Source: Halichondria panicea (lineage: Eukaryota > Porifera > Demospongiae > Suberitida > Halichondriidae). Taken from it: a stretch of 64,000 bases of DNA. Shown one piece after another: positions 4,163 to 39,871 of the stretch. Location of the stretch: NCBI RefSeq assembly GCF_963675165.1, contig NC_087377.1, positions 3,006,978 through 3,070,977 of the forward strand, read 5' to 3'. Position 1 is the stretch's first letter; each line of letters begins with the position of its first letter. Under the pieces are notes generated by a model. The model was not told the DNA's origin. It worked only from the letters and a program-made list of their open reading frames with translations, and ran no database searches. The position numbers were made by a program, and so were the translations under genes.

Positions 4163-5937
4163 TGATTTAGATCCCAAAACCTATATATTGGCTACTAGAA
4201 ATGCACTAGCTTAGCAACAGTCAATCTATATAAACAGCCAACCTAGCAACTGCATCATTATTTTTGTGAAAACTAATCTGAAGTTGGCATCTCTGTGTCT
4301 CTACTAAATCTGTGGTCTCTATTCAAGTCAATCCTGTTCCTCCACCTCAGTTTGATGGACAAAATTATAGTCCTAGCTCCACCCACAAAATGGAAACATC
4401 CAGCTCCTCCCCCAGTTTTGCAGCAAACAAGCCCAGCACACTTCCCAAGAAACAAGCGGCTCGTACTACTCTCACAAAGCGAAAGGAAGGCACCTAAGCT
4501 ATAATTTGCAGCTAACAAGCCCAGCAAACGAGCGGCTCCTATACCACTCTTGAACAAAGCGAAACGAACTTTAGGAAGAAGCCAAAGCTAGAATCCTAGC
4601 ACTTCCATACATCCAGCTCCTCCCCCATGCAGCCTTGCAGCAAAAAAGCACAGCACTGCCCAAAAAACGAGCGTCTCCTACTACTCTCGAACAAAGCCAA
4701 AAAAAGAAACTAGAGCTTCTCTCTTTCATTCTAGTTCTGTTATTATATTACTAGACAAAGCATCTAGCTACAATAATTTTTATGTTATTACATGTGTATC
4801 TTCTTGTAAATCACAATACAATGTACAATGTTGTAGTTTATACCCCAAAGCAATCTATAGTACCGGTACTATAGCTCATAGTTCCCTGCTAAATATACAC
4901 TCAAATGGGATATAATGCAACGAGTGGTGCAAGCTGGGCTGTACATGCTAATGCCTATAGCTCTCGCCGTTGTTTTGCTTTCGCTTAGAAGAGGTGACGA
5001 GGTACGTTATTATTGTTGATTGCAATTGTTGACAGAATTGAATTACACACAGTCATTATAGGAGAGGAGCTAAATGGGACTTATCTGATGGCTTGATGAG
5101 TAATCTTCAACGATTCTGAAGCAACTGCATGTTAACCAGTAAATATGATGATTTTATATGGTAGCATAATTATAGGCGTATAAAAGAAGGCGTCCTAATG
5201 GAGGCTGGTTCTATAATTAGAACGATTACGGTACTGGCTGTACAAATAATGGCTATATAGCTGTGGCTTTAACTGACTCTTGTAGCTAACAAAAAGCTAG
5301 CGCAGTGCACTTGCAACAGAGAATTGCCAAACAACAAAACCACAATCAGATAAATTATTATGAATATCATTATCAGTTGAGGAGTTTACTTTGAACTTTT
5401 CCAAGAGTACTTAACTTGGCACTTCAATAGAGCCAACTGAACATTTTCTCTATAGGCATACTCCCTCTCCCCCAAAGAACGTAAGTTACATGCATGATAT
5501 TTGTACACTGCAGTTAAGCATTTTTGAATGCATTTATCTATGTTCATAGACTATACTATAGCCTATACTATAGACTTTTCAAGAATGGTATCATAAAGTA
5601 TCCATTCTGTAGGTATCTAAAAAAATATGAGTGAAACTAATAGAAGTGCACTGCTCTGAGAATATCTATATATAATCGCTTGTTGCCCAGTGAGTGGGCA
5701 GATCAAAGCAATCCAGTGCTCAGTATATGGCATGTTGCATCACTGCCGCTCTAGATCTCAATTGAGAAAGACGGCCTGGGTATATACACTGTCTGTGCAT
5801 GCGTCAATTGCCCCTCTCGATTATACAAAAAAGGGGATTTCTGAGTTACGATGCAGTTATATATTAATAATAGTTGCCTCGCGCTAAGGTGCTTGGCAAA
5901 TAAATGTGAAAATTCAAGGAGAGAATTTTCTGCATAA
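4163..5937. other. Gene-free stretch with a degenerate duplicated segment
   Basis: A unit containing CATCCAGCTCCTCCCCCA, then AAACAAGCCCAGCA and GAGCGGCTC, occurs about three times in decayed form between 4400 and 4710. The fragment CGAGTGGTGCAAGCT near 4920 belongs to a short dispersed repeat seen also near 13525 and 21528. I see no exon. If gene CB reads on into copy A, this is part of an intron; otherwise it is intergenic. Confidence 0.5.
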
Positions 5938-8900
5938 TTATAAGTACACAGAATGTTGCCTACTTGTTTGAGCATTCAGGACTTCATTTAATCCACTCTC
6001 ATACAAGACAGTGACGAGTGTATCTCGAGTAGCGTCTTGTCCATTTCTTTGCTTCCACTCATAGAAAAACTGACAAATCTGCTCTTTCAGATCTCGTTTA
6101 TCGGCATATTCAATCGATTGAATGTCAGTTTCTGTAAAACCAAGACCTCTGGCTAGGACCATCCAATCTTGTCCAATGTGGTCAGAGATTTCCTTGATGA
6201 GTGCATCCACCGACTCTACAGCATACTTAGCATCAGGGGACTCCAAGATTGATGGGTCCATTGCAATGGGATTAAGCCCTGTAATGGTTGAGGAGGACGG
6301 TGCACATCTCTTAAGCTCTTGAACAATTTCATCATGTCCTCGGTGCTCTTCACTGGTATTAAACAAGCAATCGTAGAGTAGGTCAAAACCATTTTCACCT
6401 CCATTTCTTTTTGTTAGATTGAAAAGATTAGTTATCTTAGTTAAATTGTCAAGATACAATGATTGTACAGAATCGACGTCAGCCATATGTACCAGACGAT
6501 ATTTTAGCAAGTATGGAAGGAGTGTGGATATGCTAACAAAGAGTATAAGGCTTGGGAGACACTCTTTAAAGACATCTTCAGTCATGTAACGTTCAATTAG
6601 GGAAGTATCTGAGGATCAAAGAAAACAGTGGTATACATATACAGCCTAACAAAAACGATTGGAATAGTATACATAGCTATAATATAGTGTGATTTCAATC
6701 GCAAAAGGCCTCTATGCTGAACGTTTACAGCCTCTAAAGAAATTATACCTGATTGTTTCAAATACAAGAAGACTTGTTGAACCTCCTTCCAGCTAGGGTT
6801 GTGATGTGTGTGGAACCATTTTCTGATCACCTCCATTAGTGCTGCATCTGTGTCTTGGCGGTACTGTACTGTTATTGTTTCCAACACATCATTTTCCAAT
6901 TTGAAGAAAATACCTACTTTGTACCACGAATTTGACCATGGGATGAGCACAGCAAACACGTTGTGAACGGTAAGTGTGTCAGCACCTATTAATTAATATA
7001 ATTATAGGAACATAATAATATTATCATATTTTTTATTAATATTGAAGTAACTTACCATTACGATTAATAAACCAGATTTCTTGAACAGAAAGAAGTGCAA
7101 GTATTTCATTTGTAGCAGAACATCTCCAGTGATCCTCTGTGCTAGGAACGATCATGTGTGTGTAGTTAACCTGACCACATGTACAATGAAACCCCACAAC
7201 AGGAACAGCTTGGCTAGAAATGTGAAATGCTTCCGCGGCTTTATTTAAACCATTAACAATTGCTGCTCTGATAGATGGTAGAATCTCATAATCTTGCATT
7301 GAAGTGACATAAACAGTCATTTCAGTATTTTCCTGTCTATACAAAGTAATGAGAACATTCAGTCCAGGTAAAATGAACTGCACGCAGTTTTTGAAAACTC
7401 GAAATTGAGGAGCCTTAATTTTCCATGGCCATGGGTGACTATTGCACTGTGAGCACAAGTAACACATTATGTACTCAAAAATGCCACGGGATAATGAACA
7501 CTGGATCACAAGCGGAGCAACTTTGGTGTCATTTGCACTGAAAATAGAGCTGAGAGTTTCAACACTGACTTTTCCCCTCAGTAAACATGGCATCAAGAAT
7601 AACGAAGTTTCCAGCTCAGTTAATATATGCAAATCTTTGAAGAGGGACATTGCTTCTTTACATGTGAACAATCCTCCATACATTTTTTCACAAGCTTCAA
7701 ATGCAGTGAGGGGAATAATAGCTCCTTGATTATGCTGCATGGCATAAAGATTTATCTGGGCAATCAATTCGATCAATACAATGGAATCTTTAAATATCAC
7801 ATTTGGAAGGACATTGCCATAATATAGAATCAAGCCACTCATGTGCAAGTTAAGTAAGGCAAGTTCAAGATCAGTGTTAGATAGTCTGAATTTGGTGGCA
7901 ATAATCAATACTTCTTGTTTGCTAATAAATTTCCGATTGTATTGTCGCATTACTTTCTTGATAGCGTGACCAAGCATGTGCCAGGATAGAGAGACTTGCT
8001 TCAATTCAATCAAAGCCAACGATGATACTAGATGCTGCTCAATGTTTTCTATTTCACTCCTTGATATTCCAACTTCAAATATTGCTTGTTTTCCATCCTC
8101 ATCTGTAATGAACTTTGCCTGTCCAATATCCCTAAAAATAATCTCACTCATTCTCTCATTAGATTCAATCGACTCAACTTCTGCGTGCTTTCCAACTACC
8201 AGCAATTTTGTTGCTAGTACACTGATGTCTTTTAATAGTTGCTTGCTAGTGACTTGTATTTTATCTCCAGAAACTGAACTGTCCTGTTCTTTTTCAAGAT
8301 ATTGGCTCATACTAATAGAGTTAATGCCTATGGCAATCCCTTGAAGGAAAATCGGTAGTACATCCAACAACCAAACATCAGAGCAGCATACGCAATTAAT
8401 AATAGTCAAATTATCGAAATCTGTTGTAAGCGATCGATCACGATTGACCATTAGTTGCATAATTTTCTTAGAAGAGACACATTTTAATATACTATTCTTA
8501 GATATTGGCTCATAGATTATAGAAGTGAGATGCTGTGGGGAATTTCCAGCAGGTATCGATCTTGGAACTTCTTTACCAACAGATTGAATAGGTTTTTCTT
8601 GCTTACTTGGATTATTTTCAGGATTTTCACTTGATGCTCCCTCGGGTCTTTGTTGTATAGAATGTTTGTCTGACTCGTCCTTTTCAGCTCGAGCAAGCAC
8701 TATTTCCAAATCACTTGATGCTTTGGGTCCTTCTTGCTTAACACTTTTATCTGACTTATCATTTTCAGCTCCTTTTGGAGTTTCTATTGCAGTAAGCTCC
8801 GTATCCACATTGCTTGGTGCTTCTTTAGGTCCTTGTTGCATAGAATATTCATCTGACTCGTCAATTTTAGGAGTCTGTACTGCAGCATTACAAGCAAACA

Positions 8901-26710: not shown

Positions 26711-27424
26711 TATATGTATTCATTTATGATGTACGCGCAATTTGTATTAATTTTGACACAAATGGCACCCCATATATATAGTTCTATGGAGCACAATAAT
26801 CTGACATAACAACTTGCAAGTCGTTTTTTCGTTTCTTTGAAGTCAATGAAGGTGATTAAGTAGACTCCTAGCAGCTGGTACATTGTGGGGTATCGGGTAC
26901 GGTATATAAAATCTGCAACTGGAAGAATCACATGCAAACACATTTATTTAGCATGAGCAACATAACTTAAATCCTGAAGCTGCATGGTACATGGTGGAGT
27001 ACGCCGGTGCGGTATATTTGTATAGCAGTGATTTGTAAACCGTGAATTCAGAGAGTTTTGGGATCATGTACATGCCAACAGCATGCATGCAATGGAACTT
27101 AACTTTTTTCTTTGATATGGTGGTACTACTCTTTAAGAAAATCTTAAAGAGAGTATTGGGCAATAAGTTGATTTAGCAATGAGCACTGACTAACTTGCAA
27201 TTGTCTTTTCTTTCAAGCTGCAGATGCAGGTGACTCTTGACTCCTAGATCCTAGCTGGTATACATGGAACATGGTAGCCCAGGGCCAGGGGTACAGGCTA
27301 GGCAAGCACCATCATGTGTAAGTAATTTCGCTGAATCTGTTGACAGCTAGTTGTGTTTGGTGTCTATGATGGTTACTGGTAACCCTATCAGCACATAATA
27401 TCCATACTAGCCTCGTTCCCAGGC
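26711..27424. other. Gene-free stretch
   Basis: No exon, array or mobile-element boundary that I can support. Confidence 0.4.
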
Positions 27425-27550
27425 CGATCCGTCTCCAATTGAACGCTATAGGAGTCGACCTAGCCTCCTTCACAAGGCCTCTCTTCGAGGAAGAGCTGCA
27501 TGGGATCGAGGCTAGGAGTCGACCTATAGCGTTCAATTGGAGACGGATCG
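27425..27550. mobile_element. TAGCCTCG-family hairpin element
   Basis: The first 27 bases (CGATCCGTCTCCAATTGAAC...) are the exact reverse complement of 27524-27550. GAGTCGACCTAGCCTCC and its mirror continue the pairing inward with small offsets. Left-flanking TAGCCTCGTTCCCAGGC ties it to the same family as 42019-42078 and 59401-59450. Confidence 0.75.
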
Positions 27551-27975
27551 TCATGTTCTACTGCTGAGTCAGCAAAACGAAAAGCAATTTAGCCTGGAAT
27601 GTCATTAAAAGGTCATAATTAGTGAAAGTTCAAGTGATGTCCGACCTCCTCTGAGCTAGAGCTATAGATCTACACAAGAAGAATTGTAAATGGTCACTAA
27701 ACTAGAAAGCTGGAAATGATAAAAAAGAAGGTGATATGCACACACAGAACACAGAGCATTATAATAGTCAGTACTTTAATATAGTCAACACAGAGTTAGT
27801 TCTTTACTTGACATTCTTGCATGCTTCTTTACTTATTCATCCCTTTCAAGTAACTCCATGCAGTATCTGTATGAAAGCATGAGTACAGCACAATCAACCA
27901 AAGCTATAGAGAACGAAATATAAGATTAGACTACAATTAGATTACAAACACAAGTACCTTGTCAGGTTCTCATGA

Positions 27976-30900
27976 TCAATTGGTGGCACTATGAGCAACT
28001 GCAGTTGCTGTCCTCAAATACTTGTCTTCAATTTCCTTGGCTATATCGTTACGCGCAACGGTAGGACTCCTTAGACATTCACATATGTAAGGCCATGTCA
28101 TCAGATGTTCTAGATCAGTGACTTCAAGACGCTGGCCCACCATCTCAATTAGGCGGCGTTTGTTATGACGGTATTCATCTTCAATGTTTTTCAAATCATT
28201 AATCTTCACCCCGAGAGCCAATCCTAAATCAAACCAATTATAGGTGGCTGTTTTCAGACTCTCACAAATTGTATTAATATCCGCTCCAGTCAGAACAATC
28301 GGCTGGTCTCCATTGCTGGTATCCTTCTCTGATGATGATCCTGTACAAACATTATTAACATCAATACTCAAACGCTACACAAAACTATACACTAGACCTG
28401 CACCAAACACTATAGCTGCAAGATAAAACGAAAGAACCCAAAGAGAAATTAGATAAAATGTAGCCCCTCCCTTTGTATATGTACTTATGGAAGGGCAACA
28501 CAACAATAAGGAGGAACGACCAATAATTACATGCATGCATGTATTGAAATTAAGAAATATGCTACAGCTCTTTACCGATACTGTTCGTGAGGCAGTGGTA
28601 CACGGTAAAGAAATGCATCCTGTTTTTGGAGATCTCACAACTGATTAAGCCTTTGAAGTGACTATTTGACGAGGCTTTGAATTCCAATTCATTTCCAGTC
28701 CCGCACATTTTCGGACTTCTCTTCTTCCACTTGAAGGTGAGGCTTGGATCTAGATCCTCTAGATCAGCAAAGGGCAGAGCTAGGAGAGTAACATCATCCC
28801 CCAGGCTGACTTCCTGCACACACATGCAGACATAATAGGTCAATTAATTTTGGAACACTGGTACACATAATAGTTCAATGTATGTTAGTTATTATACATG
28901 CAGATATATAGTTATATAGAGTTACTTTTGCAAACCAGCATTCTTGGTGGAGACTTAGAGGGATTTCTGAATCACTGCATTTAAAGCATGGGTACACTCC
29001 AGGTGTGAGGAGACAAAGCTTGGAACCATCTTCATGTTTGCCACAGTAGCAGTCAAAAGCAATGATCGGAGAGAGTAGTGAACTAATGTCCTTCATCACC
29101 AACAGGAGGGTTGAGAGGACGTAGGAACAAAGCTCGTGCATTGTATACTTTCTATCCCGTCGAATAATCCGTATCTCGTAGCAATCAACGTGAGCAATCA
29201 GGGTAACAAAATGCTTGGCAGATTCGTCAATATGAAAGGAGACAAGGTTTCTCTTTACTGAGGTATCGGTGGCAAGTTTCCAAGTCATGCCCAGAATGCC
29301 TTTGCCTTTACTCCCCCTTGAAACCAATTCACTGATCATGGCACAGAATACTCCAATGGGAACGTATTGAAGTTTGAATGTGATCTTGATTGGAAAGGGT
29401 GTATCAACACCAGTGATGGGGGGTGATTTCGTTAGTTCCTCGCGAGATGCACACTCGAGAATAGCGGGGATGAAATACGTTGTTTCGATCTCTTCTGTGG
29501 TATGGCCTTCCTCCACTGTTGCGATCTTGGCCAAAAGGTGGGAATGTTCGAGTAGTATGAGCAGCTTCTCAACAGGAATCAACTGGTCTTTTTTTACATC
29601 CTGGTTTTCCTCCGAATGGCATCGAGTGATTGTTTCCTGTGAGAATTGTCCCTTCAGTATCCAATTCTTTCTCTCAGCTTCCTTGAAGTGAATACTGCTC
29701 TCTTCAGAATGGAGCTCCAGCAGCGGCTTGACAACGAGAACACTGAGGCTGTTGAATACCACTTGGGGGTTGCAAATGACAAAGTTCCCAAACCAACCAT
29801 CTTTGTCTTTGATCTCTGGATGATAGATCAAAGCTCCAACGTACCGATCCAGATACCAAACGGTGAATCGAACCTCTTCCTCTCTCATCTTTAACCCCTC
29901 GGTACCGATACGAATGCATTCTTCCATAGACACAATGTCAAACTCTTTTCTCAGTACAACTCCAAACAGAAGTTGTTGTGGGCGAATTCGAAGCTTGGCA
30001 TCTTTGAAATAGCTACTGAATAAGCCATAAAGATGTTTACGAAGAGGTTCCATATCAGAATCAGTGCCTTCGTAGTTGTCAATTGCTATGAATTGGAATT
30101 TCTTGTCTTTTGGGTTGGAAAGTAAATTCTCAAACTTGCTGGTAATCGTGCTCACGGCTTCGTTTTTCTCTGTCAACTTTTGCTCTAAACGGTTTTTGAA
30201 ATCTTTCTTGAAAGTGTCTGAGTTGAGGTGTTGGCTGACTGTTTGCTCAATGGCAGCCATGTCTTCTACACTGACGTTAGCATGCTCATCAGTTTGATTC
30301 AAAATGTTCGAAATTGCTTTCTTTTGTTCGAGTTGTTTATGGCCACTATCCCTCTTGCTGGCAGTGGTACTATCGCTCTTGCTGGCAGTGCTATCGCTCT
30401 TGCTGGCAGTGGTGCTATCGCTCTTGCTGGCAGTGGTGCTATCGCTCTTGCTGGTAGTGGTACTATCGCTCTTGCTGGCAGTGGTACCATCGCTCTTGCT
30501 GGCAGTGGTACTATCAATCTTGCTGGCAGTGGTACTATCGCTCTTGCTGGCAGTGGTACTATCGCTCTTGCTGGCAGTGGTACTATCGCTGTTGTCGGCA
30601 GCAGTACAATCGCTCTGATTGACAGCTTTTTTTGAGGCACAATATTTCTCGTACAGAAGATCGACTTTGATTTGCATTGCCAGTTCATCCTTGAAAGTAC
30701 CTATGAGGGTAGCAACAGGCTTAGCAGAACCTAGGTTGCCCAGTTTACTACACTGCTTTCTGTCAATATCTGAGTCAATCTTGGTATGGTGGCTGATACC
30801 TGAGAGGATTTGATAGATCGTTTCTCTGCTTGTGTACATTGAAACGTACGGTGTGATCTTGTCCTTTCCTCGTTCGTAGAAGACTTGACATGTGTCATCG

Positions 30901-31060
30901 AGGTTTTTGTCCAATCGAAAGAATACCAGGAAAATCCCTGCGCCTTTGCTTAGAAATGGAAACATCTCCACAAATCCAGGCTGCCCACCTATATCAACCA
31001 GATTGAGAAGGACTTTGTTCAGCAGCTCTTTAGTGTACTCTCCTGAACTCACAATACTCT
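27976..31060 (-). CDS. Copy D, 3' part: Roc switch region, COR, Ig-like and Death domains
   Basis: Exons (minus): 31060-28926, 28813-28576, 28340-27976 (stop); junction phases 0 and 1 both fit. The first continues the exon interrupted by the transposon and holds VDIGGQPGF, an expanded octapeptide tract, IGTFKD and a COR region rich in FDIVSMEECIRIG-type helices. The second exon looks like an Ig-like fold (SLTFKWKKR, GLISCEIS) lacking the first cysteine. The third is a Death domain (YNWFDLGLALGV, CLRSPTVARNDI) ending in HSATN. It is the near-twin of copy A. The product would be a GTPase coupled to an Ig-like and a Death module, plausibly signalling through death-fold contacts. As it stands it has no promoter or P-loop, because the CACTA element separates it from 37144-37661. 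Confidence 0.85.
30350..30605 (-). repeat. In-frame 24-bp coding minisatellite (SDSTTASK)
   Basis: Ten near-identical 24-bp units encode SDSTTASK octapeptides; one unit lacks a codon and a few carry single substitutions. Copy A has a single unit at the same place (about 1195-1225). The tract lies between the IGTFKD-containing GTPase core and the next helical region, in frame throughout. Confidence 0.95.
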
Positions 31061-31179
31061 CACTGAAAAAACAAATGGTTCATAATAACCCAGAAAAATG
31101 GGTTAAAACATGTGCAATTCAGATGACCCACTCGCTGGGTTACAACAACATTTAAAAACATAGGTCGGATGTACCTACA

Positions 31180-31620
31180 GCTTGATGGGTTATTCCAACA
31201 CATTCACAAAAGGTATAAATACCCAGATATATATTGGTTGTAGCAACCAGCCACATAGGTTATTTTGAGCATATTCGTAATGGGTTGTATCAACCTCTCA
31301 TAGGTAAAAATACCCAGCTATAATATAGGTTGTAGCAACCAGCCACATAACGTATTTTAAGCATATTGGTAATGGTTTGTATCAACTCCCATGGGTAAAA
31401 ATACTCAGTTATACATAGGTTGTAATAATCAGACACATAGGGTATATTTGGTATTGGTTGTATAAAGAAACCTCCCATAGGTAAAAATACCCAGCTATAG
31501 GCTGTAGCAACCAGCCACACAGGTTCCTTTGAGCATATTGGTAATGGTTGTAGCAACTTCAAATAGGTAACAATACCCAGCTATATAATAAGTTGAAGTA
31601 ACTAGCAACCTCCCATAATA
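31180..31620. repeat. Left subterminal repeats of the CACTA element
   Basis: Four to five units of about 85 bp share ATAGGTAAAAATACCCAGC, TAGGTTGTAGCAACC and AGCCACATAGGTTATTTTGAG. Such arrays are the usual binding sites of CACTA transposition proteins; that role is inferred here. Confidence 0.8.
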
Positions 31621-31850
31621 ATATTATGTGCCATAGGCTCTATAGCACAACCGTTATTTTGAGTAGTAGCTAGTCATAGCAGTCATCACCCGGCCATAAT
31701 TATAACAGTACACATGAATGGGTATACTAACTATATTTGCACAAAAACAATAAACTGATAACGTACTTATACACATAGCTAATAATTATTATAGCTAGCT
31801 GGTCTATAGTGAATAGTTATAACGTACTTACATAGTGAAATGGTTGATTG

Positions 31851-33724
31851 TTATCGTTTAACTTGGCTTTTGATATCTGAGACCACAGACAGGTATGTAG
31901 CAGGCCGTTTAAGTGAATCAGGATATGCAAGAATATAGTCTTGTAGGAAATAAAATATTCCAGCAGCTTTTTTCGGGTACTCCAAGTTAAACACATAGTA
32001 GGCTGAAAACGTATAGAACAGAGCACTTGGGATCGATGGAGCTTCACACAAAACAATTCTCTCAACAACGACAAAGTATTGTGTTATTTCTGCGCCACAA
32101 AGAGCAATAATTCTTGGGGAGTTTCTAACGGGCTCTCTTTGAATGGCATCTGTAAGAGATGTATCCTACATGGGAAAAACAAAACAATAGGTCAGTAGGG
32201 AATACACACCACACATACACGCATGCAAGGTTAAAGTGCATACAAAATGAGAAAAAAATCTTACCATTGAAAATTCTTGATAAAGATAGATAAGGGCATC
32301 ATCTAGCATTTTAGCCACTAAAACTCCTAAAAAGCTCAATGGGCCAAGATCTGCATGCCTTTCAACTGTAAAAAGAATGCGTTAAGTACCTATACTCTCG
32401 TTACTGTAATCCTTTACCAGTGTCATCAAGGGTTTCAAATATAGTTGAGAGTCCTTTTTTCCCCTTATTCTTCCTAGCATACCTCATGATTGCTGGAACA
32501 AATAACTTCCAGTTATTAATGAAGGTTTGCTTGACATCATGACACCCCGTCACTAGCCCCATTTCCTGTTCCAGCTATAATAAGGTAAGAAAAAAACTTA
32601 CTAATTTTACTTGTTAATTTTAACACTTACAGCAGCTGGCCGTTTTAGTGCTGCATGGCATTCTTTCAGTACCTCTTGCACAGACACTGCTTCAGCCTCG
32701 ATAAATGTTCTTCTTTTTGAGTAGGTAGACTTCATCAAGGGAAGAATGATAGTGTCTCTGGGATTAGCCTTTTCCATTTCTATTGACAACGCTTTCATAT
32801 GTTCACCAAAGCTTCCAATGTCTTCTATTGGTCTAGTCACTCCAATTGGGTACCTCCGGAGAAGCTGGCCTCGTTTTAAAGGCAGTTTTTGTTTCTTCTG
32901 TTTAGGACAAGAAGAATCTTCTCTGTCTCTCTTTTTTCGAGCACATTTGATCACATTTCTTACACGCTCAACCATTTTGTCCTCCCAGGTTTGCTAAAGA
33001 AAAATAATTATATACCACCTGAAATTGAAAACCAAGTATTAACTTACATATCCACTCCCCTGGTCATCCTTCATGAAGCCGTATTGTAAAATAAGTCTTC
33101 GAGCTAAGGAAGAACACTGCGCCCGAGTTGGGGAAGAGTAACAGGTGAAGAGAATGTTGACAAGGGTGCGTACTATCTCGTTTCTCGCAGAAATATCTAG
33201 CATTTCATCCGTTATGCAATCCTGGATTTCAGGACGCCAAGAAGTTGGTATAGTCAATATTTCTCTGTCGCGTGCTCTAGGCATGGTGCTAGCTTCCGAC
33301 GGGGGCGACTCAGAACTTGACCAGATAGAGGAACTTGAGCCGATCGAGATATCATCATCACCACGTTCAGGATTGAGAGGATTGAGAGAAGAAGGTGAGG
33401 GTAGAGCAGGTAAGGTGAAACAATCGTTTTGAATCCTTAGAATCTTTTTCACAATTCCAATTGGAGGCACCATCTCCTTGATGTCAGATTCTTTTATGCA
33501 TTTAAACGCTTCTCCATCAACAAAGTTTTCTGTCGAAAAGAGTAAAATAATGATGGCTTACAAAATACAGGCGAACACATGCAAACAATTCTTGCAATTA
33601 TGCTAGCTGTAGCAAAAAATATATTACCTTCAAACACTTCACAAAACTTGTCAGGAACACCCTTGTCTTTCAGCATCTGGGAAACTTCATCCACCTTCAT
33701 CGCTTCCACGGACATTGAACTCAT
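31851..33724 (-). CDS. SAM-domain protein carried by the CACTA element
   Basis: Six exons (minus): 33724-33628, 33529-33048, 32993-32631, 32574-32418, 32365-32265, 32165-31851. All have GT-AG borders and matching phases, giving 504 residues. Residues of about 5-68 form a SAM domain (VDEVSQMLKDKGV, EVFEENFVDGEAF, IVKKILRIQ). An acidic Ser-rich linker follows (about 75-110), then a conserved helical region (EIVRTLVNILF, LARRLILQYGF), a Lys/Arg-rich nuclear-localisation-like stretch, and a C-terminal domain with WKLFVPAIMRYARKN and GAEITQYFVVVE. The layout recalls SAMD3-like proteins that are multicopy in fish and cnidarians (memory only). SAM domains mediate self-association. As the second gene of the element it could be the accessory DNA-binding partner of the transposase, by analogy with plant TNPA; this is inference. 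It is divergent from 34041. Confidence 0.85.
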
Positions 33725-34040
33725 GTTCTCATCAAAAGGATGTCCTAGTACTTGCTTTCCTTTTAACAGTATAAATATATAGCTAGATAGATCTATATAG
33801 GGTTAGGGTTTGAGAGAAGAAGCAAAAAGTACTAACTTTAAACAGAAGTTGGACTTTAGCACATGTTTGTGAAGAGCTCACATGCACTCTGGATCACCTG
33901 AACCAGAATCACATGATATGAATTTAACCCTAACCCTAGGTTATACTAACCCTACCCTAGGTTACCCTAACCCTTAACCATAGGTTACCTAACCCAGAGG
34001 AGGTTTAATTAACCCTCCTAAATTAGCACATGATTTTTCA
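33725..34040. promoter_or_regulatory. Shared divergent promoter region with telomere-like repeats
   Basis: These 316 bp separate the two start codons of the CACTA genes. They hold GGGTTAGGGTTT near 33800 and a run of variants of CCCTAA from 33928 to 34010 (AACCCTAACCCTAGG, CTACCCTAGG, ACCCTAACCC). CCTAGG makes several units locally palindromic. I see no clear TATA box. Regulatory use is inferred from position only. Confidence 0.6.
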
Positions 34041-36728
34041 ATGTCAAGTTTGAGGCAAAAACACTGTCCTTTGTGTTCATTCGAACCACCAACTATTGCT
34101 CTGCTACTAAGCCATCTACGATTGGTTCATTCTAATGATCCTAGGTTTCTCGTTACCTGTGGAATCAATGGCTGCACCGTAACTTCAAAAAGTTTTTCTG
34201 CCCTATACTCCCATGTTTACAGGCGTCATCCAGAGTTTTGTATCAGACGTAAGACCCCCCAACTCCTTCCACAAACAGAGCCTGAGATCAGTGGTGATGA
34301 TCACAGTGGAATGACTCCTCTTCCAGGTGTGTACAGTGTAGATATGTTGTGGCTGCGAAGCTATTACACCTAACAGTATGATTGTTCGTCTGCAGAGTTT
34401 GTTTCTAGTGACATTAATCGGCTTACTGGAACAGACACAAAAATTCGATGCCGTTCTAGTGCCCTACTAATTCTCAAGCTAAAGGAAACACGAAATGTGT
34501 CTCAAGTAGCAGTCAATGATATGATTGACAGCAGCATAACCCAATATGATGAAACCGTATCAATGATACTTGCTGGCATTCGTTCTCAACTGGCAGATAA
34601 GGGATTAGACCCTAATGACTTTGATTTCGACACTCCTCTTAATGGTATAGGTCATCCCTTCACTGGACTTGAAACAAAATATAAGCAGGACAAGTATTTC
34701 AAAGAACAGCTTAACTTTATTGTAAGTGTTAATTATACATAATACCCTTGTAATAATTATGTATGTATATCTGCACTCATTATGTGCAATCAGTAATTGA
34801 CTGCTAATACTATATAAGTGCATCACTCAAACTACATGCAGGAACCAGTGGAAGTGCAAGTTGGGACGCCAAAGTATGTCAGACAATTCACAGGGGAAAA
34901 GTCTCGCTTTGTCTCTAGGTATAGTTCATATCATTACGTTCCCCTTTTACCAACTCTCAAGAGCCTTCTAGAAGACCCTACCGTTATAGAGCAAATAGAT
35001 GATTTTCCGTTACGAGTTCGTAATGATGGTATATTTGAAGATTTTTGTGATGGAAATTTGTTCAAGAGTCATCCTTTATTCTCAAGTGATCCATATGCCT
35101 TACAAATTATTGCATATTTTGACGAATTGGAAATTTGTAATCCCTTGGGATCGCATATCAAGAAGCATAAAGTGGGTATTTTTTTCTTTTCATTGGGAAA
35201 CATTCATCCTAAATTTCGGTCGTCACTGAGAGCTATGAATTTGGTGATTGTTTGTTCAAAGCCTGTTTTAGAAGAGCATGGGCTAGATGTTATCATGGAA
35301 CCATTTATTCGTGATTTGAATGTGTTAGCAACTACTGGCATTAGTGTACTTGTAAATGGGACTGAGCGTGTATTTAAGGGTGCTTTGCTTACGTTTTTGG
35401 CTGACAATCTTGCAAGTAATGAACTAGGTGGATTCAAGCTTTCTTTTTCCTTCTCGTTTCGTTTCTGTCGAACTTGTTTGCTAAAAAATGATGAGATGTC
35501 ACAGTATGTTACATGTGTTGGCTTGGTAGATCGAAGTCTTGCACTTCACGAAGAGCAGTGCAAGCAATTAGTAGGGCCAACAAGGAGTCATTATTCAAAA
35601 ACATATGGTATAAACCGCAGATCAGCATTACTAAATGTCACTCATTTCTCTATGTTCGGTGGTGGATTGCCGCATGACATCATGCATGACATTCTTGAAG
35701 GTATTGCACCAATGGAAATCAAGCTTTTGCTGAAACACTGTATATCTGAAAAGTTATTAACTCTTGACCAGTACAACAAAAGACTAGTTGATTTTAACTA
35801 CGGTTATTCTGATTGCGATAAACCAATACCTATTACGAGTAGTCACTTTCAAACTGACAGATCACTGCGTAGCTCTTCATCTCAAATGTTATTGTTGCTA
35901 TATATCTTACCTTTCCTTATTGGTGATAAGATACCTGAGGGGGATGGTTATTGGAAGTGTTTTTTACTTTTGCGAAAGATCGTGGACATCGTGCTTTGTC
36001 CGTGTGCATCAGAAAACACAGCATTCAGTCTGAGGATTCTGATTGAAGAGCACCATACAGCATTCATCACCTTGTACACAGGACGCTTCATTCCAAAAAT
36101 GCACTTCCTTCTGCATTACCCTGCCCAAATCCTACAAATTGGTCCAATGGTCAGAAGCTGGACTATTCGCCATGAAGCAAAGCTATATTTTTTCAAAAAA
36201 GCGACTATTACATCTAGCTTCAAAAACATTACACTATCATTAGCCAATCATCACCAAAGATTAATGTGTTACGAAATGTCTACATCTAGACTTATTTGTT
36301 CTTCTTTCGAATGTGGTCCTGCAAAATCGCCGACTTTGTTTAAAAATGAAAGATCAGACATTCAAGATCACATAATTAGGGAAGTGCCTAATATTACTAT
36401 GGATACAGTGCTGCATCGTCCTAATTGGGTTCGTCAAGATAGAGTTCAATACAAAAGCAACAATGCTTACATTATTGTAGGAACTGATGGCCTTGATCCC
36501 TGTTTTGCTTACATCGACGAATTGATAGTAGTTGGTGGTGATCTGCTTTTTTTTCTTGTCAGGTTGTGTGATATGCTGTACTTCGATAATCATTATCATG
36601 CTTATGTCATTAAAATAACATCCCAGCAATCCATCTATACCAAATTATTGGATAGAAATGTGTATCACAGTCACATACTCTCGGATGGACTTCGCTATAT
36701 CACATTGAAACACTTTTTTATGTCATAA
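34041..36728 (+). CDS. CACTA-element transposase-like protein, 832 residues
   Basis: Exons 34041-34326, 34396-34721 and 34842-36728; introns of 69 and 120 bp with GT-AG ends and phases 1 and 0, open throughout. The N-terminus has two C2H2 zinc fingers (CPLC...HLRLVH at about 8-29, and CGINGC...HVYRRH at about 41-64), suited to DNA binding. The long last exon carries CRTC and the hallmark GLPHDIMHDILEG, then PKMHFLLHYP and WTIRHEAKL. Many multicopy animal proteins I associate with EnSpm/CACTA-like elements share the MHDxLEG signature. The catalytic residues are not established by eye; the Asp residues of that motif are candidates. It would cut at the CACTG ends. Start chosen at the first ATG, just before the first zinc finger. 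Confidence 0.88.
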
Positions 36729-36744
36729 TTTCATAATTATCAGA

Positions 36745-37040
36745 ACATTTATGGTTGTTTTGACACAGTGCTGGAGGATTTACTGCATGAGTAAAGGAAT
36801 TGACCACACCAGTAGTTTTAACCAATTATATATTTATTACCTACCACAAATGGTTATTTTGACACAATTATAGAGTTTTTACTGCATGAGGAGAAGTGAT
36901 TTGACCATTGTGGAAGTTTTAACCCTTTACATTTTTATTACCAATCACAAATGGTTGTTTTAACACGGTGCTGGAAGTTTTTACTGTACGAGTAAGGTAC
37001 TTTTGACAACTACAGTAGTTTTAATCTATTACAGTTGAAA
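36745..37040. repeat. Right subterminal repeats of the CACTA element
   Basis: Three units of about 100 bp start near 36752, 36851 and 36951. They share TGGTTGTTTTGACAC, a TTTTACTGCATGAG core and AGTAGTTTTAA. They differ from the left array except for GGTT/AACC motifs. Confidence 0.8.
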
Positions 37041-37143
37041 AAACTCCAAAATGTTACTTTACTATTCGCTGGTTTTTTTAACCCTTTGGTTGAAAGGTAC
37101 ATTTACCCATTAAGGTTAAACTAACCCAGTTGTTTTTTCAGTG

Positions 37144-37661
37144 CTGGAGTCTCGAGACAACCTTTCCAACATCTACAGTGGTCGTCTTTTCCGGTTCTGG
37201 TGTTGGCCCCATTTTTTGGGGTGCAGTAGCAGCTTCATCGATCTTGAGTTGAGTTTGATTATTTTGGTCAGTGGTTTCTTTTGTGGGCTGTTTCTTAAGT
37301 GGACTAGTATTGCCGACAGTGCTGTCTTCAATAGGTTCACAGGACATAAGGTAAGAGAAGATAAACTGTGTTTCTTCCTCTAGATTTGAAGATGCTTTGA
37401 ATTCAAGCTTTGTTCCAGATTTGTCCACAAAGGCCAATACTTGTTCACACTCGGCTAGTAAGGTACTGCAACGTTTCCTTTGATCTTTGGGCAGCAAAGA
37501 CAGGTTAGTAATGGATCCAACAAGCCGCTGTCGAGTGGTCGTTTTGCCAAGATCCGAGGGACCAATGAAGTGCGTCTTGAGATAACGTAACTCAATGGTG
37601 TTGTTTGTGTCGGCTATCAGCTCATCCAGTTTTTTCAAGTAGGTTCGGTTTTGAACATTGA
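37144..37661 (-). CDS. Copy D, 5' part: P-loop exon cut by the transposon
   Basis: From a phase-1 acceptor (CTGTACAG, exon begins 37661) the frame encodes QNRTYLKKLDELIAD, the P-loop FIGPSDLGKTTTRQ and the acidic insert, up to VVSRLQH. There the first bases of the transposon (CAC TGA) create a stop. Without the element the frame reads straight into SSGEYTKELLNK at 31052, matching copy A. The upstream exon is not found; sequence similarity to copy A continues at least 150 bp into the intron. The P-loop has Asp where copy A has Gly, at a variable position of the consensus. Confidence 0.82.
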
Positions 37662-37673
37662 CTGTACAGGAGT

Positions 37674-39871
37674 AACAATCGGTCATACTGAGCTGATTGA
37701 ATAGTTTGTAAATTTATGGCAATGAATCGAGGTATATTGATAATAATTTCACATTAGATCAAGGATACTAACGTATGATATTTTAATTACAATCCCCTCC
37801 CCTCCGTGGTTCGAGGACTCTTTCAGCTGCCATAACTTAAATTCGGTGGTTCCACTTTTACTGAAACCATAGAAAAAACCTAGTGTCCAAAGTTCATAGT
37901 TGCATGAAAGATATAAATGGTTATCTATTTGGCGATACATAATTATAGCCGTCAGACAAGTTCCTGTTGCGTTTCGTTTCAAAAATGGCTGTTGAAAAGC
38001 TGGTGTAATAATGGAACAGCAACGCAAGGCAGCTCATTACAAAAACCAATACCGTTAGGCCACACCAACTGATCTTATGTTTCACTGACTTTTAGCTAAC
38101 CCCCAAAAAAACAGACCAAGGTGGCAGGCATAAAAATAAAAATTGATGAATAAAACTACAAACAGAGTCACAAACATACTACAAAAAGTCACTTCAGTAA
38201 ACATTACTACGTTTTACTTGATCACGTGGCCATTCTGACCTCTGACCTGGACCACTAATTGTTGTTTTTTGTCATTCTGCAAAAATATGACCAGGAAAAT
38301 CCGTGAAACATAAGATTAATTTGGTGGCCTTATAATTATACACAAAAAAATCACAAACATGATGCAGGTACTAAAAATTTCAATCAGCAGAAGCCTTCCA
38401 GAGGAGGCAAGCAGTGATGGATAAGATGCTCAAGTGATATACTGGGAGACTGGCACCATCCAGGGGCGTAGCCAGACTTTTGAGACAGGGGTTTCTTCAG
38501 AAAAATCAGCGATGCGATAGCGCCGCGAAATTTTTTAGGCCACGCCCACTTCCGGTAACACACACTCTTGATTGGGGCACACCTATACTGCTTATTGACT
38601 ATTGTTCATGACTTTTTTACATGTTTGTGAGAAGCTAGCTAGCTATAGACGTAACATACTAGGCATGCAGGTGCCAATTGTGTATTGCTAGTCTAGCTGA
38701 GCAACAATTAAATGTCATTTACCTGAGAGGTTTCATGTGGCTGAGATTGTTCTAAACTTGTACACTTCCTGAATAAAGTTGTGCTTAGAGCTGAGTCTGA
38801 GAATACTGGAGCATTCAGGATTGATACTAGATCTAGAACTTAAGTCTTGGTCTTCTTTGTTTGAGGTAGCTAGCTAGCTGAGACTAACTAGCTGAGACAA
38901 AGCCAAGTGAAACGTACGGAAGCCCGTTTATCCCTTTCCTTGCCATTCGTGAAATCTGGAACAGGAGCATCTTTAGGTCGATCAATTAGTGTGGATCCGG
39001 CCTCACCACGCCTCCATGTCATTCTATTAGTCTAGATCCGGCTAGCAATTCTAGCTGGGACTCCCAGTTCTAGCTCCTTTTGTTTAGCGTGTCAGAGACT
39101 GGGAGAAGATGATTGGCACTCCCTGGCTCCTTTGGATGTACAGCTGTCCAGATCCCTAGAACATACCCTCCATTCTGACGAGTTATCAGTGCATAGGGTG
39201 CTTACTAGATTCTTGCCAGCCAGTACAGTTCAAGCTACACACAGCACCGCTCAACTATTCTCTACCCCATTATCTAGCTAAATCTGGTCCAACTAGACAG
39301 CAGACACAGCTAGTTAATTCAGTAAAGCCAGGGGTACCGGGTAGCCTACCCACGGTAACAATTCCTCTGGGCTGGGCTAACTAGTTGAGCCACGCCTCCC
39401 AATTCTTAAGGCTAGGTACATGTCTCTGTCTAGCTGCTTCTTCAGCTTCTTGCTCAGTTTTGTGGCTTAGAGAAAGGCCAGCTACTCAGGGGGAAGAGTC
39501 CAGATGAAAGTCTGGCAGCCAGGTGACGTCCAAACGGTCAGTTATTCTTTCCACCAACTTTTTAATCTAGTCTAGTCCTGCTTGCACTGCTACTACTACT
39601 ACTGCTACTCTTCCTACTACTACTGCTGCTACTCTTCCTAGCTAGTCAAAGGTTTCTTTTTTTTTTTATTTTTTATAACTACATATGCACAAAGAGACAT
39701 CAAAGCTTACATCGAAGGACACAGATTTTTAGCCTACTTGACTGATAAGGCCGTTACCTAGACTACAGTTTGTTTGTCAGGGAGGAGCTCACATACAACT
39801 TCATCTAATTCATCATAACGATTCCTTACCCATTGTTGTAATTTCTACAACAGATTGCCAAGGAAAGAGAT
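37674..39871. other. Gene-free stretch; fragments and simple repeats
   Basis: 38463-38560 is a one-ended fragment beginning CAGGGGCGTAGCCAGACTTT with AGCGCCGCGAAATTTTT and CACGCCCAC. (CTACTA)n-like runs lie at 39582-39640 and a T/A-rich tract at 39656-39677. No exon found; the upstream exons of copy D may lie here or beyond. Confidence 0.5.

Follow-up and report, generated by a model that had tools for sequence, protein, structure and literature searches.

The window, by which we mean the whole stretch of 64,000 nucleotides of Halichondria panicea DNA that was analysed, contains at positions 31061-37143 a DNA transposon of 6,083 bp that carries a divergent gene pair. From left to right, its features are as follows:

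31059..31060 and 37144..37145, no strand: target-site duplication CT, the flanking dinucleotides being identical on the left and on the right
31061..31074, plus strand: left terminal inverted repeat CACTGAAAAAACAA, exact 14-bp match
31211..31606, no strand: left subterminal array, 4.5 copies of a 91-bp unit rich in GGTTGTA
33724 to 31851, minus strand: SAM-type gene, spliced model with 6 exons (33724-33628, 33529-33048, 32993-32631, 32574-32418, 32365-32265 and 32165-31851), predicted product 504 aa
33725..34040, no strand: intergenic region of 316 bp, dense in GGTT/AACC, presumed shared divergent promoter
33925-33995, intergenic, between the SAM-type and transposase genes: TAACCCTAACCCTAGGTTACC repeats, telomere-like (TAACCC)
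34041..36728, plus strand: transposase gene, modelled with exons 34041-34326, 34396-34721 and 34842-36728, product of 832 aa (model) with an N-terminal C2H2-like region and a tnp2-like core
36751..36966, no strand: right subterminal array, 2.2 copies of a 101-bp unit
37130..37143, minus strand: right terminal inverted repeat CACTGAAAAAACAA, exact 14-bp match

In the model of the SAM-type gene, all introns are GT-AG, the phases are consistent and 504 codons are followed by a stop, while the splice sites of the transposase model represent one choice among several possible. The initial annotation had described a complete six-exon, 504-residue gene between the termini and divergent from the transposase, and this description was borne out, as the model splices and the perfect ends enclose both genes. 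Perfect matches to CACTGAAAAAACAA occur at only two places in the window, 31061 (+) and 37130 (-); when up to 2 mismatches were allowed, 3 places were found versus 1.23 expected, a number that was reached in 11 of 100 shuffles. The name "CACTA" element given earlier does not describe the termini, since both ends begin with CACTG and not CACTA in all six copies of the element described below.

The element seems to have inserted into the coding sequence of a minus-strand gene (window 28875-31079 and 37138-37713), and this copy of the gene would be interrupted. On either side of the element, open frames of that strand run right up to the insertion, and the N-terminal piece contains a P-loop-like GPSDLGKTTT. 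Within the interrupted gene, tandem repeats at 30299-30635 encode an SDSTTASK-like run, with several frames open. Further to the left, at 27420-27560, a long inverted repeat was seen by eye (CGATCCGTCTCCAATTGAACGCTATAGG...); it is hairpin-like and perhaps represents a small inverted-repeat element.

A search of the 131-Mb genome with the exact 14-mer returned 20 places, compared with 6 for the reversed pattern, and 12 of these places mark the termini of six full-length copies, one of which is the window copy. The host genome is that of an animal by its Wnt genes, for which 10 exon matches exceeded the Pfam cut-off, compared with none in 14 control genomes. These copies are 6,081-6,091 bp long and 99.7-100% identical to the window copy, and the first 145 bases of the left end are 100% identical across all six. 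The flanking dinucleotides match in 5/6 copies, the mismatch being in L001, and no general 3-bp match was found. The idea that we are dealing with a host gene pair and not a transposon is ruled out by the perfect ends, the 2-bp duplications and the dispersed, near-identical copies. The initial annotation had left it to other copies of the element to show whether the SAM gene belongs to it, and in all six full-length copies the SAM frame is intact; the transposase frame is intact in five, with L001 frame-shifted by insertions of 6 and 4 bp. A passenger gene confined to one copy is thus ruled out by the six copies, together with the diverged families described below. Two of the full-length copies, L004 and L005 (G000:C11:2501680-2515566), lie in the same orientation about 1.7 kb apart. 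When the 145-bp left end was used as the query, 13 genome matches were obtained, namely the six full copies, two places at 85% identity and five short matches of 57 bp. The sequence of L007, which is one of the two 85% places, showed neither gene; no SAM profile match was found there, and a single match (E 0.025) was to the finger region of the transposase. Gene-less derivatives of the element ends therefore exist, as is expected for such elements.

The annotation had also assigned an N-terminal SAM domain to the 504-residue protein. For the window copy alone this assignment is weak, with the Pfam SAM_1 match remaining below the cut-off (E 0.093), but the family as a whole upholds it. Among seven diverged N-termini, three exceeded the SAM_1 cut-off (L043, 8.6e-8; L050, 7.4e-9; L051, 3.4e-5), those of L045 and L047 gave sub-threshold SAM matches only, and those of L046 and L052 gave no SAM match in Pfam. 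In addition, the family profile matches solved SAM domains, with Polyhomeotic as the best match (6.9e-6), followed by SARM1, L3MBTL3 and SAMD1. Judged from these sequence matches, several relatives begin with a true SAM domain, an assignment that is firm for the family and sub-threshold in the window copy. The remainder of the window protein gave only a sub-threshold match to CAAP1 in Pfam searches to E 10, in which filters remove most matches above about 0.1. The same searches returned no match to Transposase_24, the TNPA-type domain, in agreement with the earlier statement that the second protein is unrelated to its plant counterpart. The middle domain is followed by a basic stretch, which in 2/7 models contains KRGRP, a motif that we take to be the core of an AT-hook. 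Structure predictions run without an alignment on one SAM exon and on the main transposase exon were unusably poor (pLDDT 42 and 33, respectively).

Searches of the genome with the SAM protein and the transposase revealed diverged pairs at seven places (C3:5.297 Mb, C1:5.079 Mb, C12:6.307 Mb, C2:4.835 Mb, C20, C5:3.960 Mb and C8:3.844 Mb), for which SAM models were built using a purpose-written spliced aligner. Near full-length, colinear SAM homologues, each encoded on the other strand from the adjoining transposase, were recovered in L043, L045, L046 and L047, and likewise in L052, where the homologue is divergent from a diverged transposase. Partial homologues lie beside diverged transposases in L012, L040, L048, L051, L053, L056 and L057, and several of the diverged SAM homologues are decayed. 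Of six fetched loci that had a transposase but no SAM gene in the first search, five proved to hold one (L051, L052, L053, L054/L056 and L057). A profile built from five SAM models uncovered divergent SAM exons in L051, L052 and L053, three of the first four loci fetched. L051 retains only the N-terminal SAM exons, the following stretch being occupied by the frames of another transposon; by eye, transposase frames at 4586-6377 of this locus, where the SAM gene should continue, are pogo/Tigger-like. L057 carries decayed SAM exons in divergent orientation. The L054 family has a different arrangement, in which the two genes share a strand and the SAM gene follows downstream (L056, colinear matches of 4.1e-11, 1.3e-9 and 8.3e-7; tandem pair at G000:C7:3.994-4.0065 Mb). 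The sixth locus, L061 (C6:949 kb), showed no SAM gene within the 4 kb that precede its transposase. When a profile of seven SAM models was run against 6,156 control fragments, it gave one match, with an E value of 0.28.

Pairwise identities across eight families are 19-44% among the SAM proteins and 25-61% among their transposases. The comparison of the two proteins' relationships that the initial annotation had proposed was made on distances: SAM and transposase distances correlate over the eight families (r 0.82; exact permutation p 325/40320), although by eye the correlation leans on one close pair. Among decayed copies, dN/dS ranged from 0.47 to 0.83, with two further pairs giving no defined dS; these values are sensitive to the alignment and point to constraint only weakly, if at all. 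Moreover, the codon maps must be partly wrong, because the dN/dS run gives 87% nucleotide identity for L044/L050, compared with 97.9% by blastn. A scan for inverted ends in nine diverged loci was convincing for L050, yielded one candidate end pair for L045 (3 mismatches of 14, matching dinucleotide CA, 6,364 bp) and gave nothing convincing in the other seven. A transposase pattern search of viral contigs gave no match, and none of the 45 genome-contig and 83 viral-contig pattern matches to the transposase alignment A2 was a relative by tblastn.

The diverged loci bear directly on the possibility that the window family picked up a host SAM gene by accident and carries it as a passenger. Plant CACTA elements are documented to capture host gene fragments (PMC8195511, in the portion of the text available), so that there is precedent for such an event, but SAM-type homologues adjoin transposases whose mutual identity is no more than about 25-35%, and the SAM frame is intact in every full-length copy. 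We regard this reading, which is contradicted within this genome, as very improbable.

The association can also be expressed as a count. Matches from single-sequence searches were merged into 41 transposase loci and 66 SAM loci, and 27 of the 41 transposase loci had a SAM locus within 8 kb, versus 0.36 expected under random placement. Loci of the same family within these 27 pairs are not independent, with six belonging to the window family, eight to the L052 family and three to an apparent L054 family. In orientation, 23 pairs are divergent, three are tandem with the SAM gene downstream and one is convergent. The remaining 14 transposase loci had no SAM locus within 8 kb in the single-sequence searches, and two of them (L053 and L057) held SAM once read. 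Conversely, 39 of the 66 SAM loci do not form the closest partner of any listed transposase. Loci were merged by hand; SAM places resting only on matches weaker than about 1e-3 were omitted (C1:8492844), and weaker matches were retained where they extended an existing locus. The convergent pair, on C8, involves a locus extended in this way (E 0.004) and would not be counted otherwise, with the stretch in question backed by the profile in L055 (E 1.6e-5), and the same locus also contains a divergent transposase fragment (L012). Outside the 41-locus count, transposase exons lie beside SAM loci in divergent orientation at C2:4.870-4.874 Mb and in convergent orientation at C15:3.359 Mb, and transposases at C6:6948863, C6:5770959 and C5:3907512 have no listed SAM within 8 kb. 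A second family comprises eight SAM-transposase pairs (G000:C1:81 kb to 948 kb, 13.34 Mb and C6:390 kb); six of these lie in the first megabase of contig 1, for which either segmental duplication or transposition could account.

Some SAM genes are found without a transposase. Two of the 39 SAM loci just mentioned, L050 and L044/L049, share 97.9% identity over 2.4 kb, contain no transposase and look like a SAM-only derivative, with two breaks in each of the SAM models. The SAM-only element in L050 measures 2,880 bp and has the ends CACCGTAAAAACAG and CACCATAAAAAATG (CACC(G/A)TAAAAA) with flanking CA. An element with ends of its own is what one would look for if the SAM gene were an independent SAM element that had repeatedly become nested in, or adjacent to, the transposase by chance. 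This is set against the observations that both genes lie inside one perfect end pair with fixed spacing in 6/6 copies (the search for internal ends covering the 14-mer only) and that the pairs so far outnumber chance expectation, and of the explanations considered here we find it the least credible.

The SAM partner is kept by so many distant relatives that it has the appearance of a functional component of the element, as opposed to a gene strayed in from the host. We favour, with a probability of roughly 0.65, the reading that the SAM gene belongs permanently, as a second gene, to an old lineage of CACTA-like (tnp2-related) animal transposons, that its product would be an analogue of TNPA, and that it does not represent a recent capture. 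The term "cargo", used in the initial annotation, is too weak a word, because the conservation of the SAM gene fits an integral component.

Short motifs in the non-coding parts of the element speak to what such a component might do. The left arm (31061-31850) contains 22 GGTT/AACC motifs, compared with a simulated mean of 7.5 and maximum of 14, and the intergenic region contains 14 (simulated mean 3.7, maximum 10), making it the densest part of the element at 44 per kb. Both genes lie under their simulated means, and the right arm is within the simulation (10 motifs; mean 5.9, maximum 12). By analogy with plant elements, these motifs match in part a role in binding arms and promoter, and the SAM protein is most likely a TNPA analogue acting as the arm- and promoter-binding partner, with binding and polymerisation as its putative activities. 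According to the model that we propose, the SAM protein would enter the nucleus, where its basic middle region, which sometimes carries an AT-hook, would bind GGTT/AACC-type repeats in the arms and in the shared promoter, and SAM-SAM contacts would render it multimeric. Being multimeric, it could gather the two ends of the element and bring them together for the transposase, and it could tune the transcription of both genes.

The same motifs would also suit a SAM protein that is encoded by the element and under selection, yet acts outside the transposition complex, either by countering silencing or host defence or by doing nothing other than regulating the transcription of the pair from its shared promoter. 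That the motifs are densest between the two genes and that SAM-only derivatives without transposase occur (L050 and L044/L049) both accord with such a role; the enrichment in the left arm, which a protein devoted to transcription would need less, does not. We consider this role unlikely, if clearly less so than a chance origin of the pair, and prefer the reading of the SAM protein as a TNPA analogue that takes part in transposition.

The core of the window transposase matches Transposase_21 (PF02992) weakly (E 0.012-0.015, with 15.2 bits at E 0.012 where the cut-off is 28.6), the relatives L047 and L054 give no PF02992 match, and the C2H2-like features of the window protein's N-terminus are likewise weak and sub-threshold in Pfam. 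Like the present element, whose own tnp2 relation is thus sub-threshold, plant CACTA elements such as En/Spm, Tam1 and Tgmt* combine a tnp2-type transposase (TNPD/tnp2) with a second protein (TNPA/TNP1), and share short inverted ends starting with CACT as well as subterminal repeat arrays at both ends. They differ in having CACTA ends and a 3-bp duplication, as opposed to CACTG and 2 bp here, in producing their proteins from alternatively spliced transcripts of one unit, whereas two divergent genes are present here, and in having a Transposase_24 partner where this element has a SAM-domain partner without a Transposase_24 match. The subterminal repeats of plant elements are bound by TNPA, which is needed alongside the transposase, and the second proteins TNPA and TNP1 have little similarity to each other (both from excerpts of PMC2613891); Transposase_24 is the domain by which plant TNPA is recognised (part of the text of PMC8195511).

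Animal TRC elements, SmTRC1 and its relatives, offer the second comparison, as described in the accessible sections of PMC1636069. They resemble the present element in their animal host, in a Transposase_21-type transposase (an assignment that is sub-threshold here) and in inverted ends, and in the 2-bp direct repeats at their insertion sites, seen here in 5/6 copies. Their ends, however, start with CCC and those of the present element with CAC, and box A is only approximate here: the TRC motif D-x-[LM]-H-x3-L-G was not found, and D-I-M-H-D-I-L-E-G was seen by eye instead. In SmTRC1, PrA, PrA2 and PrB are alternative splicing products that appeared not to be detectably conserved, conservation having been seen in the transposase domain only, and those sections of PMC1636069 mention no SAM protein for SmTRC1 and its relatives, in contrast to the pair found here. 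By analogy, then, the present element works like a two-protein CACTA element, and we class it among CACTA-like animal elements related to tnp2, with a partner protein that is new; in Pfam the relation to tnp2 is sub-threshold.

The initial annotation had further connected the gene with multicopy SAMD3-like families. For this comparison we used an unverified version of the human SAMD3 sequence, which was set down when the SAM models were already known. Against the seven-sequence profile, this sequence matched over nearly its whole length with an E value of 7.5e-33 (20,000 proteins), and with its SAM domain removed the E value was 4.5e-24; neither the reversed sequence nor any of 20 shuffles matched. 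The best single match was the L045 protein and not that of the window (23% identity over 531 columns, E 1e-17), and a comparison with solved structures returned no match that could confirm its letters. In this unverified version, SAMD3 and SAMD3-like proteins would resemble the transposon proteins in the order of SAM, middle and C-terminal parts over nearly the whole length. Tentatively, and at somewhat less than even odds, we suggest that proteins of the animal SAMD3 family, human SAMD3 among them, represent the accessory protein of a CACTA-like animal transposon lineage of ancient origin, and that SAMD3 is an analogue of TNPA that became domesticated and may still bind DNA and multimerise by way of its SAM domain. 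In titles and abstract openings of the literature, nothing among the matches listed links SAM or SAMD3 proteins to transposons, most subscription papers and Repbase being outside this scope; samd3-like appears in a zebrafish expression list in the accessible part of PMC7037442.

If this suggestion is true, SAMD3-like multigene families would be transposon genes, and if the SAMD3 match is right, the human gene would descend from, or share its origin with, the second gene of a transposon. The SAM partner could also explain the multiplication of SAM gene families in animal genomes, and it provides a concrete subject for studying how elements gather long subterminal arrays. More generally, the conservation, in an animal lineage, of a second protein that is not homologous to the plant one would extend the two-protein principle known from plant CACTA elements to animals, with a different partner.
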